Source of the DNA: Kordia sp.
Lineage (GTDB): Bacteria; Bacteroidota; Bacteroidia; Flavobacteriales; Flavobacteriaceae
DNA length: 64,000 nt
Assembly: GCF_022447245.1 (NCBI RefSeq)
Contig: NZ_JAKVBC010000011.1
Coordinates: 1-64,000, forward strand
Reading direction: 5' to 3'
The translations under genes and the position numbers were made by a program. Each line of letters opens with the position of its first letter. Position 1 is the stretch's first letter. A model generated the notes under the pieces. It had not been told where the DNA came from. It ran no database searches and saw nothing but the letters and a program-made list of their open reading frames with translations. Positions 16,426 through 22,752 of the stretch are shown in pieces.

Positions 16426-19380
16426 ATGAAATTTAAAATTACACTTATCCTATTACTAGGTGTTTTGACGCTATCGTTTGCTCAAGATAGAGAAAAAGCT
16501 AGTTATATAGGAACTGCTGACACGCACACCTATGTTCCTTCAATTGCCTCTAGATTGAATGAAATTACACCATCAACAATAAAACCTCCAAGTGAAGTAA
16601 AAGATGGAAGATATTTTAAAAATCGTATTCCTATCATTCCTGGCAAAGGAAAACAACAGGATATCTTATCCAAAAATCCGCATCCATTGAGTCAAAAAAT
16701 TTCAGGAAGAACTCCAGATATAACTTGGGTAGGTGCAGTCTCAAATTCTCAACCTACAGATCCTGCGCTTGCAGTTGGGCCTAATCATGTTTTTGTGGTA
16801 TTTAATACAGGCTTTGCGATTTATGATAAAGACGGTAATGAATTGGTTGGGCAAACAAATCCAAATCCTGCTATATTTCCTAGTTCTGGTTGTTGCGATT
16901 TAACAGTATCGTATGATCCTGTAGCAACTTCTGTTGGAAATTCGAATCCAGGTAGATGGGTACTTTCTTTTCTTGGATCAGGTGCTCAAATAGCTGTTTC
17001 TGATGGACCCGATCCTGTGAATGATGGTTGGAATGTTTATACCATTAATACTGTAAATGATTATAATAAGCTTTCTGTATGGAGTGACGGATATTACCTT
17101 ACGGATGTAACTGGTTCTGGAGATAGAGTTTATGCTATGGACCGTCAAGCAATGCTCGATGGAGAACCTGCAGCTAACGTATCTATACAAGGTTTTGGCC
17201 TTCCTAACTTAAATGTTAGTGGTTTTGCTAGTGTACAGGTATTAAACATTTCTGATAGTGTATACCCAAATCCTGGAAATGCAACAGTCGTATTTTTTCA
17301 AGATGATGCTTACCCTAATCAAGATGATGACAGTGTAAAATTTTGGGATATAGATGTAGATTTTGACAATCCATTAAATTCAACAGTCTCTAATCCTCAA
17401 GAAATCATTGTAACACCATTTACATCTGTATTTGATGGTGGTTCCTTTTCTAACTTAAGACAACCAGGAGGACAAGATATTGATGCTTTACAAGGTATTG
17501 TGATGAATCAGGCTCAATACAAGAAATTCCCTAGTTATGAAAGCGCAATATTTAACTTTGTTATTGATGTAGGTACTGGAGGTAATGAGCAAGCAGCCAT
17601 TCGCTGGTATGAGTTTAGAAGAAATAGTCCTTCAGATCCGTGGATGATGGCACAAGAAGGAACTTTTTCTGACCCTGATGGACGCCATTTTTGGCATGCC
17701 AGTATGATCATGGACATTCAAGGAAATATAGGAATGGGCTTCAGTGCCATGGGAAATGCGACTACAGGCAATGGTAGTAATGAATTTGTTTCTAGCTATT
17801 ACACAGGTCGATTTGCAAATGACCCTGGTGGCACAATGACTATTGCACCTCAACTTATTGCTGCCGGAAATGGCAATATTCCGGGTTCTGAACGCTATGG
17901 AGATTATGGTAAGATAGACCTTGATCCTTCTAACTTTAAGAGAATGTATTTTATTAATGAGCTTATGTTTCCTAACCGAGCAAATGTAGTCGGTCGTTTT
18001 CAAATAGCTCCTGATTTGGATACAGATATAGGCGTCGTAAATATCGATGCTCCTGTAGACGGAACGTTAACTAATAGCGAACAAATAACAGTAAGTATTT
18101 TTAATTACGGTAACAATCCAGTCTCTGGCTTTGATGTGACTTATCAAATTGATGGTGGCACAATAATTACAGAAACTTATACTGGCACTATTAACTCTAC
18201 AGAAACAGTATCATTTACTTTTACAACTCCTGCAGATTTAAGTGTTGAAGGACAAACATATACCCTTGTAGCTTCCACTGTTTTAAGTGCGGATGAAGAG
18301 AATTTAAACGATACTTTTACGAAAAATGTAACCCATTTATTTGCGGAAGATGTAGGTGTAACTGCTCTTGTTACTCCTTCTACAGGAAGTTTATCTGATA
18401 CCGAAATTGTTACTGTAGAGATTACTAATTTTGGAACTTCTACACAGACTTCTATTCCTGTATTTTACATGGTTGATGGAGTTACTGAGAATGAAACTTA
18501 TACTGGATCCATAGCTCCTGGAGCTACTGACAGCTATGCTTTTACTGCTACTGCTGACCTTTCTACTCTAGGAGATTACACTTTTGAAATTGGGACAGCT
18601 TTAGGGTCAGATTCCGATACCAGTAATGATGCAATCACAACAATCATTACTAATATTATCTGTATGCCTGATAGTGATTGCGCAGGATTTGGTGATGGCG
18701 TAACGCAATTGCAACTTGCAGATCAAGATATTGCCACAAACTGTGGTCCTGATGGATATTCTGATGATACATCTACAATCTTTAACTTTAATTTAGATGA
18801 CGATAATCCTTTTAATGGTGTTTTACAACTAGGATATGTGAACTCTAATTACACAATATGGATTGATTTTAATGATAATAATGAATTTGAAACAGATGAA
18901 ATTATTTCTAGTGGTCTTGTTGCAGCTGCTGATACCGATTTTAATTTTACTGTGGACTTTGATATAATACCTAATGTGTTACCTGGTTTGCACAGAATGC
19001 GTGTTAGAGGTGGAGATGAAAATTCTGGTGGAACAGTTAGCGACCCTTGTGGTGATTTACAATACGGTAGAACTAATGATTATACAGCAAATGTAATTCA
19101 AACCCTTAGTGTGGAAGATAACGTATTAAATGCTTCTAACTTTACCATTTTAGACAAAGGAAATAACATTTTTGATATTTCATTAAGCAACACGAATATA
19201 GATAGAATGATACTATCTGTTTTTGATATTTCTGGAAAACAAATATTTAGTCACGGACTTGTTAACGAAGATAAAGAAATCCGTTACAATCTAAATATGT
19301 CTTATGTAGCATCTGGAGTATATCTTGTTCGCCTAAGAAAAGGAAATACAGAATTGGTCAAAAAGCTAGTTGTGAAATAA
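16426..19380 (+). CDS. Large secreted T9SS protein with CARDB-like and GEVED domains
   Basis: A 984-residue exported protein. After the signal peptide (about 1-19, ending SFAQ) and a propeptide-like stretch, residues about 100-525 form a beta-rich domain with DPALAVGPNHVFVVFNTGFAIYD, seen in surface proteins of marine bacteria. Two CARDB-like Ig-type domains follow (about 535-635 and 640-735: DTDIGVVNIDAPVDG, EDVGVTALVTPSTG), then a GEVED-type domain (about 755-885: YTIWIDFNDNNEFETDEIISSG, RMRVRGGDENSGGT). The last 75 residues are a T9SS sorting domain ending KKLVVK. A cell-surface or released adhesin-type role is likely; no catalytic domain is recognised. It stands alone between two terminators. 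Confidence 0.75.
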   Translation: MKFKITLILLLGVLTLSFAQDREKASYIGTADTHTYVPSIASRLNEITPSTIKPPSEVKDGRYFKNRIPIIPGKGKQQDILSKNPHPLSQKISGRTPDITWVGAVSNSQPTDPALAVGPNHVFVVFNTGFAIYDKDGNELVGQTNPNPAIFPSSGCCDLTVSYDPVATSVGNSNPGRWVLSFLGSGAQIAVSDGPDPVNDGWNVYTINTVNDYNKLSVWSDGYYLTDVTGSGDRVYAMDRQAMLDGEPAANVSIQGFGLPNLNVSGFASVQVLNISDSVYPNPGNATVVFFQDDAYPNQDDDSVKFWDIDVDFDNPLNSTVSNPQEIIVTPFTSVFDGGSFSNLRQPGGQDIDALQGIVMNQAQYKKFPSYESAIFNFVIDVGTGGNEQAAIRWYEFRRNSPSDPWMMAQEGTFSDPDGRHFWHASMIMDIQGNIGMGFSAMGNATTGNGSNEFVSSYYTGRFANDPGGTMTIAPQLIAAGNGNIPGSERYGDYGKIDLDPSNFKRMYFINELMFPNRANVVGRFQIAPDLDTDIGVVNIDAPVDGTLTNSEQITVSIFNYGNNPVSGFDVTYQIDGGTIITETYTGTINSTETVSFTFTTPADLSVEGQTYTLVASTVLSADEENLNDTFTKNVTHLFAEDVGVTALVTPSTGSLSDTEIVTVEITNFGTSTQTSIPVFYMVDGVTENETYTGSIAPGATDSYAFTATADLSTLGDYTFEIGTALGSDSDTSNDAITTIITNIICMPDSDCAGFGDGVTQLQLADQDIATNCGPDGYSDDTSTIFNFNLDDDNPFNGVLQLGYVNSNYTIWIDFNDNNEFETDEIISSGLVAAADTDFNFTVDFDIIPNVLPGLHRMRVRGGDENSGGTVSDPCGDLQYGRTNDYTANVIQTLSVEDNVLNASNFTILDKGNNIFDISLSNTNIDRMILSVFDISGKQIFSHGLVNEDKEIRYNLNMSYVASGVYLVRLRKGNTELVKKLVVK

Positions 19381-19445: not shown

Positions 19446-19692
19446 AGGAATTTACTTGAAAGTCTTATGACAAAAACGATATGTCTTAAAGAATCATGAT
19501 ATCCTTACAAGTCTGCAATTTATTTTAATTGTAAGATTTCAGACTATTTTTTTATCGATAATTTGATTAAAAACATGTATTGCTTTCCATTTAGTAATTC
19601 CACGAATACTATTCTGTTTTTCGTCCGTTTAGCGAAGTAAAAACGAGTCCTTTTATATTAAGTTTTCATCAAGTTAATTTATATATTTTACT
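19446..19692. other. Intergenic gap between terminators
   Basis: Between the terminators of the T9SS gene and the first peptide gene I see only the second copy of the short GTTTAGCGAAGTAAAAA repeat (19619-19645) and no coding frame. Confidence 0.5.
19619..19645. repeat. Short interspersed repeat, copy 2
   Basis: Same orientation as 16069-16095; the shared core GTTTAGCGAAGTAAAAA is identical and flanking bases differ by transitions. Confidence 0.5.
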
Positions 19693-19722
19693 AAAAAAAA
19701 GGGACAACCTAGGTTGCCCCTT
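19693..19722 (-). terminator. Terminator of peptide gene 1
   Basis: On the minus strand GGGGCAACCT-AGGTTGTCCC is a near-perfect stem followed by eight T residues, 23 bases after the stop at 19745. Confidence 0.85.
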
Positions 19723-19744
19723 GAAGCTTTATTGTAAGCCTATC

Positions 19745-19981
19745 TTAATTTTCTTGTTGATGTGTACATCCACCTGCTCCAAATTCGCTTGGTCCATCAT
19801 TACATAATATAGATTGAGCTGTACAACCATTCAGTGATTGACAACCTCCTACACTACAAAAACCTGTACATCCTAATGTATTTGCTGGTATTGAACCATT
19901 TCCTCCTAATAGCATGTTTTTGTTTAAAGATGAAACAATGTTTTTGTTTAATCCTAAGTTACTAAACTTCTTTTTTTTCAT
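19745..19981 (-). CDS. GG-leader, Cys-rich ribosomal peptide precursor 1
   Basis: A 78-residue protein starting MKKKKFSNLGLNKNIVSSL, with a leader ending in LLGG (about residue 26) and a 52-residue core rich in Cys (6), Ser, Thr, Gly and Asn (for example CTGFCSVGGCQ). This is the layout of bacteriocin-type or class I lanthipeptide-like precursors of Bacteroidetes, cleaved after GG. No maturase or transporter gene is in the window. A longer reading from 20029 is possible, but its extra 16 residues overlap the conserved 5' leader and are unlikely to be translated. The 20-bp palindrome at 20095-20114 lies upstream and a terminator follows, so it is a single-gene unit. The final chemistry is unknown. 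Confidence 0.75.
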   Translation of the reverse strand: MKKKKFSNLGLNKNIVSSLNKNMLLGGNGSIPANTLGCTGFCSVGGCQSLNGCTAQSILCNDGPSEFGAGGCTHQQEN

Positions 19982-19984
19982 GAT

Positions 19985-20046
19985 TTTAAATTTTCTGTTG
20001 CGCCTACTTTTTCTATAGGTTTTCGGCAATACCTTTTCAATCGATT
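19985..20046 (-). promoter_or_regulatory. Conserved 5' leader element (copy in gene 1)
   Basis: Transcribed from the minus strand: GATTGA, nine bases, GCCGAAAACCTATAG, then GTAGGC, ending a few bases before the start codon. The same arrangement precedes gene 3 (20653-20709). The CCTA/TAGG and GCC/GGC pairs could form a small hairpin. Its role is unknown. Confidence 0.45.
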
Positions 20047-20094
20047 GTTACTGCCAAATTAGAAAGGAATGTGCACGAAAAAAAGAGTCATAAA

Positions 20095-20114
20095 CGTAAA
20101 TTGGATGATTTAAG
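20095..20114. promoter_or_regulatory. Shared 20-bp palindromic operator, copy A
   Basis: CGTAAATTGGATGATTTAAG, imperfect palindrome of the form CTTRAATYA..TRATTYAAG, 113 bases upstream of peptide gene 1. Confidence 0.75.
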
Positions 20115-20125
20115 TTATTAAGTAG

Positions 20126-20284
20126 TTACTTGATTGCATAACAAACTTTTTCTTCATCTGGAGCTTGAGACATTGGTGGTGATACAGGCTCAGACCCTCC
20201 TTTTACTGCTTTAGTTTGTAATTTTTGAATTACTGCTACTGAAATTTTTGCTATTTGTAAATTACGTGTTGACTTTTTCTTCAT
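20126..20284 (-). CDS. GG-leader peptide precursor 2
   Basis: A 52-residue peptide, too short for usual gene calling. The leader MKKKSTRNLQIAKISVAVIQ continues to KAVKGG (GG at 29-30). The 22-residue core (SEPVSPPMSQAPDEEKVCYAIK) is Pro/Ser/acidic with one Cys, unlike cores 1, 3 and 4, so it may be a different product type or a diverged member. The start is ATG at 20284, with A/T-rich sequence before it. The palindrome copy B lies 71 bases upstream. No terminator of its own is evident; its transcript may run into gene 1. Confidence 0.7.
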   Translation of the reverse strand: MKKKSTRNLQIAKISVAVIQKLQTKAVKGGSEPVSPPMSQAPDEEKVCYAIK

Positions 20285-20319
20285 AATTGAAAATTTTAAA
20301 TTATTAATTCTTTTTAAAT

Positions 20320-20325
20320 CTATTG
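20320..20325 (-). promoter_or_regulatory. CAATAG start-region box of peptide gene 2
   Basis: CAATAG on the minus strand begins exactly 50 bases from the outer end of palindrome copy B, the same spacing as for genes 3 and 4; probably in the -7/start region. Confidence 0.5.
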
Positions 20326-20355
20326 ATTATCAATTTATGTTTTGAAAATTCTAAA

Positions 20356-20375
20356 CTTAAATCATCTAATTCAAG
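20356..20375. promoter_or_regulatory. Shared 20-bp palindromic operator, copy B
   Basis: CTTAAATCATCTAATTCAAG, 71 bases upstream of peptide gene 2. It reads in the opposite orientation to copies A and C, as expected of a near-symmetric site. Confidence 0.75.
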
Positions 20376-20446
20376 GAAGAAACTTCACTTCTTAAATACA
20401 AATAATCAACATGTTAACAACGTTTTCAATATTCGTTTTACCGCAT

Positions 20447-20470
20447 AAAAAAAGGAACAATAATTGCTCC
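20447..20470 (-). terminator. Terminator of peptide gene 3
   Basis: On the minus strand GGAGCAAT pairs with ATTGTTCC and is followed by seven T residues, 25 bases after the stop at 20496. Confidence 0.8.
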
Positions 20471-20495
20471 TCTTTTCTTAAAAATTAGTTTTATT

Positions 20496-20648
20496 CTAGT
20501 GACATTGCATATTTCCGCAACGTGAATATAATGCTGTTTGCGTACATGTAGGTGTACAAGAATAGTGTCCACCTTTTACTTCGTTTGTATCTAATATTGA
20601 TACTTTCTTTTTGTTCAATCCTAATTTTAAAGTTCTTGATTTTTTCAT
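20496..20648 (-). CDS. GG-leader, Cys-rich ribosomal peptide precursor 3
   Basis: A 50-residue peptide. The leader MKKSRTLKLGLNKKKVSIL shares LGLNKK.VS with gene 1 and ends EVKGG (26-27). The 23-residue core HYSCTPTCTQTALYSRCGN.. has four Cys and seven Ser/Thr and ends CGNMQCH. Gene 4 ends CGNEMCH, so the two cores share a C-terminal CGN-(x)-MxCH-like tail. The start is ATG at 20648. It has its own palindrome (copy C), conserved leader element and terminator, so it is a stand-alone unit. It fits class I lanthipeptide-like or other Cys-modified precursors; chemistry not determined. Confidence 0.78.
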   Translation of the reverse strand: MKKSRTLKLGLNKKKVSILDTNEVKGGHYSCTPTCTQTALYSRCGNMQCH

Positions 20649-20652
20649 GGTT

Positions 20653-20709
20653 ATAATTTTAACGTGCCTACAATTTATAAAGGCTTTGGCTTTTCCCTAT
20701 CAATCTTTA
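20653..20709 (-). promoter_or_regulatory. Conserved 5' leader element (copy in gene 3)
   Basis: Minus strand: GATTGA, nine bases, GCCAAAGCCTTTATAAA, then GTAGGC, close to the start of peptide gene 3. It matches the leader of gene 1 in order and spacing. Confidence 0.45.
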
Positions 20710-20734
20710 GTAGGTAAAAATTGATAGTTGTAAT

Positions 20735-20740
20735 CTATTG
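20735..20740 (-). promoter_or_regulatory. CAATAG start-region box of peptide gene 3
   Basis: CAATAG begins 50 bases from the outer end of palindrome copy C. Confidence 0.5.
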
Positions 20741-20770
20741 AAGAAATTAAAATTAAAAAAAGTAAACTTC

Positions 20771-20790
20771 CGTAAATTAGATGATTTAAG
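20771..20790. promoter_or_regulatory. Shared 20-bp palindromic operator, copy C
   Basis: CGTAAATTAGATGATTTAAG, one base different from copy A, 122 bases upstream of peptide gene 3 and 6 bases after the stop of gene 4. Confidence 0.78.
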
Positions 20791-20796
20791 GTTGCA

Positions 20797-20958
20797 TTAG
20801 TGACACATTTCATTTCCACATTCAGATCCAAGAGCTGTTGGAATTCCCGGAATAGAAACGGTATCTGTTCCCCCTTTAAGCTTTGTAGAAAGCGATGTAT
20901 TTATTTTGGAGATTAGTTTTTTTGAAAATCGTAGCTTTTTTGGTTGTTGTTTTTTCAT
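20797..20958 (-). CDS. GG-leader, Cys-containing ribosomal peptide precursor 4
   Basis: A 53-residue peptide. The leader MKKQQPKKLRFSKKLISKIN ends KLKGG (29-30). The 23-residue core TDTVSIPGIPTALGSE.. ends CGNEMCH, close to the end of gene 3 (CGNMQCH), and has two Cys and several Ser/Thr. The start is ATG at 20958, with palindrome copy D 84 bases upstream. It is the precursor gene nearest to the TPR/AraC regulator. No obvious terminator precedes copy C. Family membership is inferred from leader, GG and core composition. Confidence 0.77.
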   Translation of the reverse strand: MKKQQPKKLRFSKKLISKINTSLSTKLKGGTDTVSIPGIPTALGSECGNEMCH

Positions 20959-21006
20959 TATTCAAGTATTTAAAAAATTGCGGTTAGTTTATTTAAGCTC
21001 TTAAAA

Positions 21007-21012
21007 CTATTG
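21007..21012 (-). promoter_or_regulatory. CAATAG start-region box of peptide gene 4
   Basis: CAATAG, preceded by TATATT, begins 50 bases from the outer end of palindrome copy D. Confidence 0.5.
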
Positions 21013-21042
21013 AATATAATTAATTTAGAAATTTTTGTAAAC

Positions 21043-21062
21043 CTTAAATTAGACAATTTAAG
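21043..21062. promoter_or_regulatory. Shared 20-bp palindromic operator, copy D
   Basis: CTTAAATTAGACAATTTAAG; with the flanking C and G the arms CCTTAAATT/AATTTAAGG are a perfect 9-bp inverted repeat around AGAC. This is the most symmetric of the four copies. It lies 84 bases upstream of peptide gene 4 and 34 bases after the regulator stop. Confidence 0.8.
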
Positions 21063-21096
21063 GCAGTTTAAATGTACTCACAGCATATTGCTAATA

Positions 21097-22752
21097 CTAA
21101 GTCTCAAGACGTTTTTCTAATTCTTTGATGTAGTATGAAGGATTTATTCCTGTTGCCTTCTTGAAGTGTTTTGTAAAGGATTCTGGGCTTTTGTATCCAA
21201 CCTCTAATGCAATATGTTTGATTGCATATTTACGAAATTGATGATCTGTATTCAATCGGTTTATGGTATAGTTGATACGCAACTCATTTAAGTATTGATA
21301 GAATGTTTTTTCTTTGTACTGTTTAATGATTTGCGTAAGATAGGTAGTATTCGTTTTTGCCTTTTTCGCCATATTTGCCAACGAACATGAAGATTCTAAG
21401 AAATAGTGTTGTTCTTCTAACTTTTCGAGGCGTTTTAAAACAGCTTCTACTTTTGTGTCTGTTATAACAATTTCTTTAGATTTTTGTTGTGCTTCAACAG
21501 TTTTCTTTTCTTGCGCTTGTACTAATTTTTCAAAATGTAATTTGTTCTTCTTAGCTTTTTGCCTGTAGTACAACAATAATAAAAGTACAATACATAATAG
21601 TATTATTATGATTGCTAACCATTTATAAAGGTTTTTTTCAGATTTTTCTACCTTGTCTATTTTCTTTTGTTTTATATTGATAAGGCGTTCATATAAAACT
21701 TCATTTACGATGGCTATTTTAGATTCAGATATTTCTTTCAAATCCTCTGCTAAAGATTTGTATATTGACGCATTTTCATGTTGCGCATCTCGTTCATAGC
21801 AACTAGCTAACAATTCATAATTTTCAACTAATTCAAGTGGTCGAAATTGTGTTTTCAAAAGATTTCCAGAAGCTTCAATAATACTGGAAACTTTTTCAAA
21901 ATTAACTAATGCTTTTTGAAAGTTTTCAAGTGCAAAATGACTTTTACCTACATAGAAAGTAGTTTCTGCCATCCGTTCTTTATTTCCAATTGATTCTCTG
22001 AATTGTATTGACTTATCTAAATATTGTATTGCTTTTGAGTATTCTTCTTTGAGAATATATGCCATGCCCTTATCATGATAAAAAAAACTTTCAGCAATTT
22101 TATCATTATCATCCATCATTTTTAATCCTTTATCAATATATACTAACGCTGAGTCTGGTTGATGCATCACTAAAAAAGTGCCGCCAATTCCCATAATAAT
22201 TCGGGATAGATTTTTCTTATGAAAGTTGAGTTCTAATGCACGTTTATATCCGACCTTATACATTTGTAAAGCTTTTTGATACTTTCCTAAATTTCTAGTG
22301 ATTTTTGCTATATTTATTTGTGCGATTTCAATTTCTTCTTGCTGATTGTTTAAAAATGCATTTTCGTAAGCTTCTGTATAGCACTTTAAAGCTTCCTTAT
22401 CTTCATACCAATGCGAATATACATTTCCTAAACGCAGCAAATATCTATTTCGAAGCGTGTTTTTCCCTGAGATATCAATGAGTTTCAATCCAAGTTTTAG
22501 AGAATCAACAGCCTGTTGACTTTCTCCTATATTTGTATATAAAATTCCAATATCTAAATACGTTTCTATTAATAAAGTAGTATCCTTTTTAGCATATCCT
22601 ATTTTTAATAATTCTCCTAATTTTTCTAAGGCAAGTGTTCCTTCATTGAAAAGATTCTTTTTTACAGATTGCTTTAGTGCTATTACATCTCGCCTTTCAT
22701 GTTTACAAGCATATACTGAAATAAGCAATATAATTAGAAAAATTTTCCTCAT
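21097..22752 (-). CDS. Membrane-bound TPR/AraC-type transcriptional regulator
   Basis: A 551-residue one-component regulator. The N-terminus (MRKIFLIILLISVYAC) looks like a lipoprotein or signal sequence with Cys16. About residues 30-340 are tetratricopeptide repeats (ALKCYTEAYENA, KALQMYKVGYKRAL, KAIQYLDKSIQFRES). A single transmembrane helix lies at about 374-394 (LAIIIILLCIVLLLLLYY), followed by a basic coiled-coil and a C-terminal AraC-type double helix-turn-helix (about 450-551: SLANMAKKAKTNTTYLTQIIK, IALEVGYKSPESFTKHFKKATG). The TPR part is therefore probably periplasmic and the DNA-binding part cytoplasmic. It ends next to palindrome copy D and is the obvious candidate to control the four peptide genes, which is inference. 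Confidence 0.85.
   Translation of the reverse strand: MRKIFLIILLISVYACKHERRDVIALKQSVKKNLFNEGTLALEKLGELLKIGYAKKDTTLLIETYLDIGILYTNIGESQQAVDSLKLGLKLIDISGKNTLRNRYLLRLGNVYSHWYEDKEALKCYTEAYENAFLNNQQEEIEIAQINIAKITRNLGKYQKALQMYKVGYKRALELNFHKKNLSRIIMGIGGTFLVMHQPDSALVYIDKGLKMMDDNDKIAESFFYHDKGMAYILKEEYSKAIQYLDKSIQFRESIGNKERMAETTFYVGKSHFALENFQKALVNFEKVSSIIEASGNLLKTQFRPLELVENYELLASCYERDAQHENASIYKSLAEDLKEISESKIAIVNEVLYERLINIKQKKIDKVEKSEKNLYKWLAIIIILLCIVLLLLLYYRQKAKKNKLHFEKLVQAQEKKTVEAQQKSKEIVITDTKVEAVLKRLEKLEEQHYFLESSCSLANMAKKAKTNTTYLTQIIKQYKEKTFYQYLNELRINYTINRLNTDHQFRKYAIKHIALEVGYKSPESFTKHFKKATGINPSYYIKELEKRLET

Follow-up and report, generated by a model that had tools for sequence, protein, structure and literature searches.

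Four small peptide genes that lie close together in a Kordia genome are each preceded by a similar 20-bp palindrome, which raises the question of whether these palindromes are a regulatory site and, if so, which protein binds them. The stretch of DNA analyzed here, referred to as the window, comprises 64,000 nucleotides, and the features given below with window coordinates for genes, palindromes and promoter elements all lie on its reverse strand. The genes (coordinates without the stop codon) encode predicted double-glycine peptide precursors: a cysteine-rich one of 78 aa (gene 1, 19748..19981), one of 52 aa (gene 2, 20129..20284), one of 50 aa with a near-identical core in several Kordia genomes (gene 3, 20499..20648) and one of 53 aa directly behind a regulator gene (gene 4, 20800..20958). 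An earlier note on this DNA had proposed one palindrome copy per gene, and a motif scan of the window recovered all of them, CTTAAATCATCCAATTTACG at 20095..20114, CTTGAATTAGATGATTTAAG at 20356..20375, CTTAAATCATCTAATTTACG at 20771..20790 and CTTAAATTGTCTAATTTAAG at 21043..21062 for genes 1 to 4, respectively, the start codon of each gene being located 71–122 nt after the palindrome end. The strict consensus given at that time (CTTRAATYA..TRATTYAAG) fits only one of the four copies exactly and is better replaced by CTTAAATYATCYAATTTAMG or its reverse; similarly, the perfect 9-bp arms attributed to the last copy exist if one base is added at each side (21042–21063), but not within 21043–21062 itself. 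At up to three mismatches, the window contains five strand-matches at four places, compared to 0.24 expected, and none of 100 shuffled versions of the window reached five. A chance origin of the four copies is excluded, and they very likely represent the conserved operator of a peptide regulon.

The palindrome had been suggested to sit where an activator would, at a fixed distance from a CAATAG box beginning 50 bases from its outer end. This distance is correct for genes 2, 3 and 4, and the fixed spacing as such held; the partner, however, is the canonical TAnnTTTG element and not CAATAG. For an ungapped alignment we used 47 sites (32 in clusters, 15 elsewhere), which were selected for a following peptide gene and not for spacing. 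Here, the palindrome occupies offsets 0–19, a T-rich patch offsets 30–33 and TAnnTTTG offsets 53–60; the spacer between palindrome and -7 element is mostly unconserved. TAnnTT is found at exactly offset 53 in 34 of the 47 sites and at 52–54 in 38, the mean for other offsets being 0.59 sites; outside the cluster it occurs at 52–54 in only 6/15 sites, the TT being kept in 12/15. CAATAG itself begins at offset 50 in only 8 of the 47 sites and was rejected as a separate box: it represents one of the sequence variants of the common Bacteroidota -7 element TAnnTTTG. Predicted -7 elements at offset 53 from the palindrome start are present in front of all four window genes, namely TAATTTGG for gene 1 (20054..20061), TAGATTTA for gene 2 (20315..20322), TAGATTAC for gene 3 (20730..20737) and TAGTTTTA for gene 4 (21002..21009), the latter three overlapping CAATAG. 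Thus, gene 1 indeed lacks CAATAG, as had been noted, but it is no exception with regard to the promoter, since the TA of TAATTTGG occupies the same place as in the other genes. In F. psychrophilum, mapped transcription starts place the TAnnTTTG box at -12 to -5 (PMC9723704); by this measure the palindrome would span about -65 to -46. The fixed distance to TAnnTTTG, with a predicted palindrome centre near -55, supports the activator-like position.

A second palindrome of 10 bp, CAATCGATTG, is located just after the predicted start of gene 1 (20038..20047), and CAATYRATTG (CAATCGATTG or close to it) occurs at offset 66–67 in 12 of the 47 regulon promoters, that of gene 1 included. Possibly, this element provides a second regulatory input. 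Separately, one paralogous module (L130) carries a longer repeat whose ends match CAATCGATTG.

Inverted repeats between genes may also terminate transcription of the upstream gene or form hairpins at the end of its RNA, and each window copy does follow a stop codon (of genes 2, 3 and 4 and of the regulator); in addition, the repeats often begin within 20 nt of the regulator stop. A terminator scan of 19600–21200, however, returned a single site, which is located behind gene 1, and listed none of the four palindromes. Their distance is fixed to the downstream -7 element, and sites recur at scattered places with other surroundings. A hairpin noticed by eye behind gene 3 does not appear in the scan and is disregarded here. 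Based on the scan and the fixed spacing, the terminator reading was rejected as hardly credible.

The extent of the putative regulon was determined by the genome-wide motif scan that the earlier note had proposed. At up to three mismatches, the genome contains 12 strand-matches at 10 places, compared to three for a mirror control. Beyond the window copies, the site at C3:89506 precedes a gene for a 61-aa GG peptide, and that at C27:50949 precedes one for a 28-aa GG peptide, a weaker second site at the latter locus being followed by a 79-aa one; the remaining four matches are taken as chance. The improved consensus yields matches in all 11 Kordia genomes, with 52 strand-matches (47 places) versus six for the mirror control at up to two mismatches. 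Within the clusters of these 11 genomes, a site (≤4 mismatches) precedes 31 of the 35 peptide genes that passed a filter. The other four begin no more than about 75 nt after a preceding gene. At least two genes escaped this filter: one that has a site (L093) and one that lacks it and is located 10 nt after the regulator (G009). Outside the cluster, 15 of 19 places pass a uniform filter for a peptide gene 40–150 nt away, compared to 2–8% of random positions (67/4000 in the window with the cluster left out, 253/3000 in the same loci). Reading by eye places a peptide gene at 17 of the 19, with L083 and L090 failing; the two additional places are L080, whose peptide contains fewer K/R/N than the filter requires, and the first of the L076 sites, which is followed by a 29-aa leader-like frame without GG. 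Short MLEK..GG peptides of 28–53 aa were observed behind the palindrome at L009 (1592–1678), L080, L082, L089 and L076, and a GCGARC..GYTCGC hairpin was seen by eye near the short peptides in L009, L076 and L089. Outside the genus, 10 of 297 other genomes of the family match at up to one mismatch versus eight mirror-control matches in that set; in a scan of the sequence collection, 8 of 15 matching stretches belong to Kordia, and the other seven are single matches outside it. We take the matches outside Kordia in both searches as chance. The palindrome thus appears to be nearly confined to Kordia.

The likeness of the sites might simply reflect recent duplication of peptide genes together with their upstream DNA, without selection on the palindrome as a site. 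The peptide genes are clearly duplicated in clusters, and some flanks are alike. Yet the 20-mer and the -7 element are constant, in contrast to the flanks and the greater part of the spacer. Sites are found in both orientations and precede dissimilar peptides, and even unlike palindromes, as described below, have a common geometry. We therefore regard duplication without selection as very unlikely, and the statistics across the genus favor an operator at fixed geometry to the promoter of a peptide regulon.

Each of the four window peptides has a lysine-rich leader and a GG motif; a GG or GA motif is the basis on which double-glycine cleavage and export are predicted. The leaders resemble those of class I lanthipeptides, mostly at scores below the cut-off of the corresponding model (NF038153, cut-off 22): genes 2, 1 and 4 reach 17.4, 13.9 and 13.3 bits, respectively, and gene 3 gave no match. 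Among eight other peptides of the modules or the regulon, five match and one lies above the cut-off (22.8 bits). A PHROGs search with the four window peptides returned no matches at E 0.1. The single match to a LanB N-terminal domain in the genome is located at C1:228978, on a different contig than the window genes (C3). At this locus, genes for LanC and the LanB C-terminal part directly precede a TPR-AraC module, two peptides, an HlyD protein and a C39 exporter. C39 peptidase domains gave six matches above cut-off in the genome, three of them with more than 100 bits in open frames of 742–748 aa. As the LanB/LanC/C39 locus is not adjacent to the window genes, the window peptides would be modified and exported in trans. 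A hub operator controlling the exporter was considered and dropped: L172 has no second copy at up to three mismatches besides itself. As further observations, a 984-aa secreted-type protein is encoded at 16426–19380 of the window and has a C-terminal tail that by eye is similar to a type IX sorting domain, and at L114, L115, L117 and L120 the sequence TTCTCAGATCGATC, often together with GGGAAAGCC, was seen by eye upstream of other peptide genes near CCCTA-type modules.

The obvious candidate for a binding protein is the adjacent 551-aa regulator (21097..22752), in which profile searches and a structural model indicate TPR repeats followed by an AraC-type HTH at residues 461–543. The HTH is assigned to the AraC/XylS domain by PF12833 (56.1 bits at a cut-off of 33.6), and the repeats are assigned by PF00515 (61.5 bits) and PF13424 (58.7 bits), a repeat domain that RRNPP receptors also have; the profile search identified no kinase or receiver domain. 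By eye, the N-terminus is lipoprotein-like, and a hydrophobic stretch between TPR and HTH, followed by positive residues, was recognized as a single membrane helix near residues 376–394, considering the regulators of group A only. The regulator is probably anchored in the membrane. An AlphaFold2 model built from six sequences (mean pLDDT 79.5, pTM 0.58) displays a helical repeat and a long helix leading to the HTH. A Foldseek search with this model mostly returned generic TPR proteins, NprR and Rap being among the first 50 matches, and Rap is also among the sequence matches. Autoregulation through the same palindrome was considered and not retained: in 6 of the 11 genomes, which were checked for this, the 400 nt upstream of the regulator contain no palindrome of the window type, the nearest sequence having at least six mismatches.

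The regulator is not unique within its genome. It gave 32 matches at E 1e-8, of which 30 loci were read, and 18 intact regulator-like proteins of 531–599 aa were obtained. All 18 have the AraC domain above cut-off and 17 have a TPR model; L139 gave none at E 1e-5, and the other 16 of the 17 paralogs are at or over the cut-off. Behind 17 of the 18, with the exception of L136, a peptide gene follows on the same strand 86–139 nt after the stop codon. As a control, the 36 window genes with a length of 150 aa or more were examined for a peptide gene within 160 nt, which is present solely behind the regulator itself; likewise, no such gene lies within 300 nt of five intact AraC genes whose match is restricted to the HTH part. 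A peptide is encoded next to 48 of 50 regulators in a filtered set drawn from Kordia and some additional loci. At the 19 best-matching loci outside Kordia (L022–L040), a long regulator is present in 10, and three of those 10 have an adjacent peptide. One locus from another genus (L022/L112, G036) has a TPR-AraC-type gene, a peptide at +101 and an CCCTAAATTTATAAATATGGGG repeat, and a second, partial copy of such a gene seems to be nearby as judged by eye. Broken copies with internal stops at C45:169335, C1:117331 and C45:66106 (L122, L138, L140), some of them still near peptide genes, suggest gain and loss of modules.

Most modules also have an inverted repeat in front of the peptide gene. Compared to shuffled sequences, 10 of the 17 repeats are significant at p <0.05, with a combined Fisher chi2 of 112 on 34 df; two further modules are at p about 0.075, including that of the window (0.076 taken alone), and five lack a significant repeat. 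The repeats mostly differ between modules, with two pairs alike, examples being CTCAAATTAAGTAATTTGAG, CCCTATTTTGATTGAAATAGGG, GTCGTTATTTATAAATTACGAC, TCGTATTTATGTAAATACGA and GTGATATTTATAAATATCAC. Nevertheless, their geometry is often the same: TAnnTT is located at offset 53 in 6 of the 11 modules with a clear repeat other than that of the window, and at 54 in one. In the closest paralogs (L101–L111), which share a CTCAAAT half-site, the best -7 element is at 63–64 in 11 of 13 cases and at 54 in two, positions about one helical turn apart; these are the best picks within a search range, some of them tied, and one member without a repeat was left out. The palindrome studied here thus seems to belong to a set of about a dozen, every one of which is located next to a separate regulator gene. 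The small dedicated regulon that had been postulated is dedicated indeed, but it is scattered over genome and genus and forms one of about 18 parallel regulator–peptide modules. Taken together, a real conserved operator of a peptide regulon, embedded in a multiplied regulator–operator–peptide system, is very likely on the sequence evidence.

Protein and operator distances were compared by Mantel tests over 16 modules (12 from the own genome and four picked by hand). The distance between HTH domains correlates with that between operators, both for their five outer bases (r 0.44, p 0.0002) and for all ten (r 0.30, p 0.001). The distance between TPR regions is weakly correlated with the operator (r 0.18, p 0.04), and HTH versus TPR gave r 0.18 (p 0.10). 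The tracking of the operator by the HTH is a statistical property of these sequences, and part of it may stem from shared descent of whole modules. Among six orthologs, mean identity is 82% in the HTH and 41% in the TPR part, with boundaries set by us, a pattern that a constant operator combined with a drifting sensor would produce. We consider it likely that the AraC protein is the binder of the neighbouring palindrome. Direct repeats are the usual target of AraC proteins, a single domain of this type spanning almost 20 bp; thus, a symmetric 20-bp site is unusual for the family. A site of this kind suits a simple HTH dimer, and the palindrome could instead be a true operator that is bound by another dimeric regulator of the TetR, MarR or Crp type encoded elsewhere, with the TPR-AraC protein acting in a different way; in favor of this, no gene long enough for such a regulator was seen around C3:89506 (L004, 3 kb). 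The modules mostly have different palindromes, several of them at the same spacing, and a single outside factor could hardly serve them all, the DNA-binding protein encoded beside each palindrome is TPR-AraC, and the operator sequence tracks the AraC HTH, which makes another regulator rather unlikely.

Our preferred explanation, to which we assign a probability of roughly three in four as a whole, is that the palindrome would serve as operator for a set of Kordia genes encoding secreted, lanthipeptide-like precursors of the double-glycine type. The adjacent TPR-AraC regulator (21097–22752) would bind it, probably while anchored in the membrane, and would activate a TAnnTTTG promoter of the ordinary type, acting at a constant distance upstream with its site centred near -55. 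The locus is one of about 18 paralogous modules, made up of a TPR-AraC gene and a peptide gene behind it, mostly with a palindrome of their own and often at the same geometry. The regulon, its fixed geometry, the multiplication of the modules and the tracking of the operator by the HTH follow from the sequence statistics. The predicted topology would place the TPR region outside the cytoplasm, where it might sense peptides. Tentatively, each TPR-AraC protein may act at the membrane as the receptor of an exported, modified peptide, most likely the product of the gene immediately behind it; we regard this step as possible but less likely than not. The correlation between TPR and adjacent peptide core is r 0.25 (p 0.06) in group A (n=11) and r 0.76 in group B (n=14), while in the latter TPR and HTH correlate at r 0.88. 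With such receptors, a Kordia cell would have at least a dozen parallel peptide-signalling channels separated by their own palindromic operators, and a one-protein peptide-sensing system would exist in which an RRNPP-like TPR region outside the membrane is coupled to AraC. The palindromes make this question directly testable. They also provide a DNA handle for finding peptide genes, including the easily missed ones of 28–34 residues, and tie each peptide set to one regulator, and the DNA-binding domains of the modules, which are related and whose half-sites are related yet not the same, form a natural series in which specificity can be studied.

Among the open-access matches listed on these peptides, regulators and operators, no paper on the regulator–operator system appeared in the portions available. 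The corresponding sections mention an abundance of RiPPs or gene clusters in Kordia (PMC11118758, PMC10734526), list a lanthipeptide cluster (PMC7477175), and note TPR genes in Bacteroidales RiPP clusters along with a mention of pheromone regulation (PMC10352776).

Compared to known systems, the promoter is the ordinary part: the -7 element of the Bacteroidota sigma-A promoter TAnnTTTG (PMC9723704) is present here without difference, at a fixed distance from the palindrome. The RRNPP receptors NprR, PlcR and Rap are similar in that a signalling protein with a TPR superhelix is encoded beside small, probably exported peptides. These receptors are cytoplasmic and have an Xre-type HTH or a Rap effector domain; in contrast, the Kordia regulator has an AraC-type HTH and, by eye, a hydrophobic helix between TPR and HTH, and its best TPR matches are generic eukaryotic and designed TPR proteins. 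Bacteroidota hybrid two-component systems likewise combine a sensor, a membrane helix and an AraC-type output, but the regulator described here has a TPR sensor instead of kinase and receiver, and its putative targets are peptide genes and not genes for sugar use. Autoinduced lanthipeptide clusters of the nisin NisRK type also have precursor genes under a dedicated promoter, and a TPR-AraC module is part of the one LanB/LanC/C39-exporter locus in the Kordia genome; here, however, the candidate is a one-component regulator rather than a kinase with a response regulator, and the window precursors are on another contig than the sole LanB match. Finally, the regulator shares with AraC/XylS activators the C-terminal HTH_18/AraC domain above the Pfam cut-off and a site just upstream of the promoter. 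Unlike these activators, it has a TPR sensor, a probable membrane anchor and a putative symmetric operator of 20–22 bp, and it belongs to a set of 18 paralogs, most of them with an operator and a peptide gene of their own.
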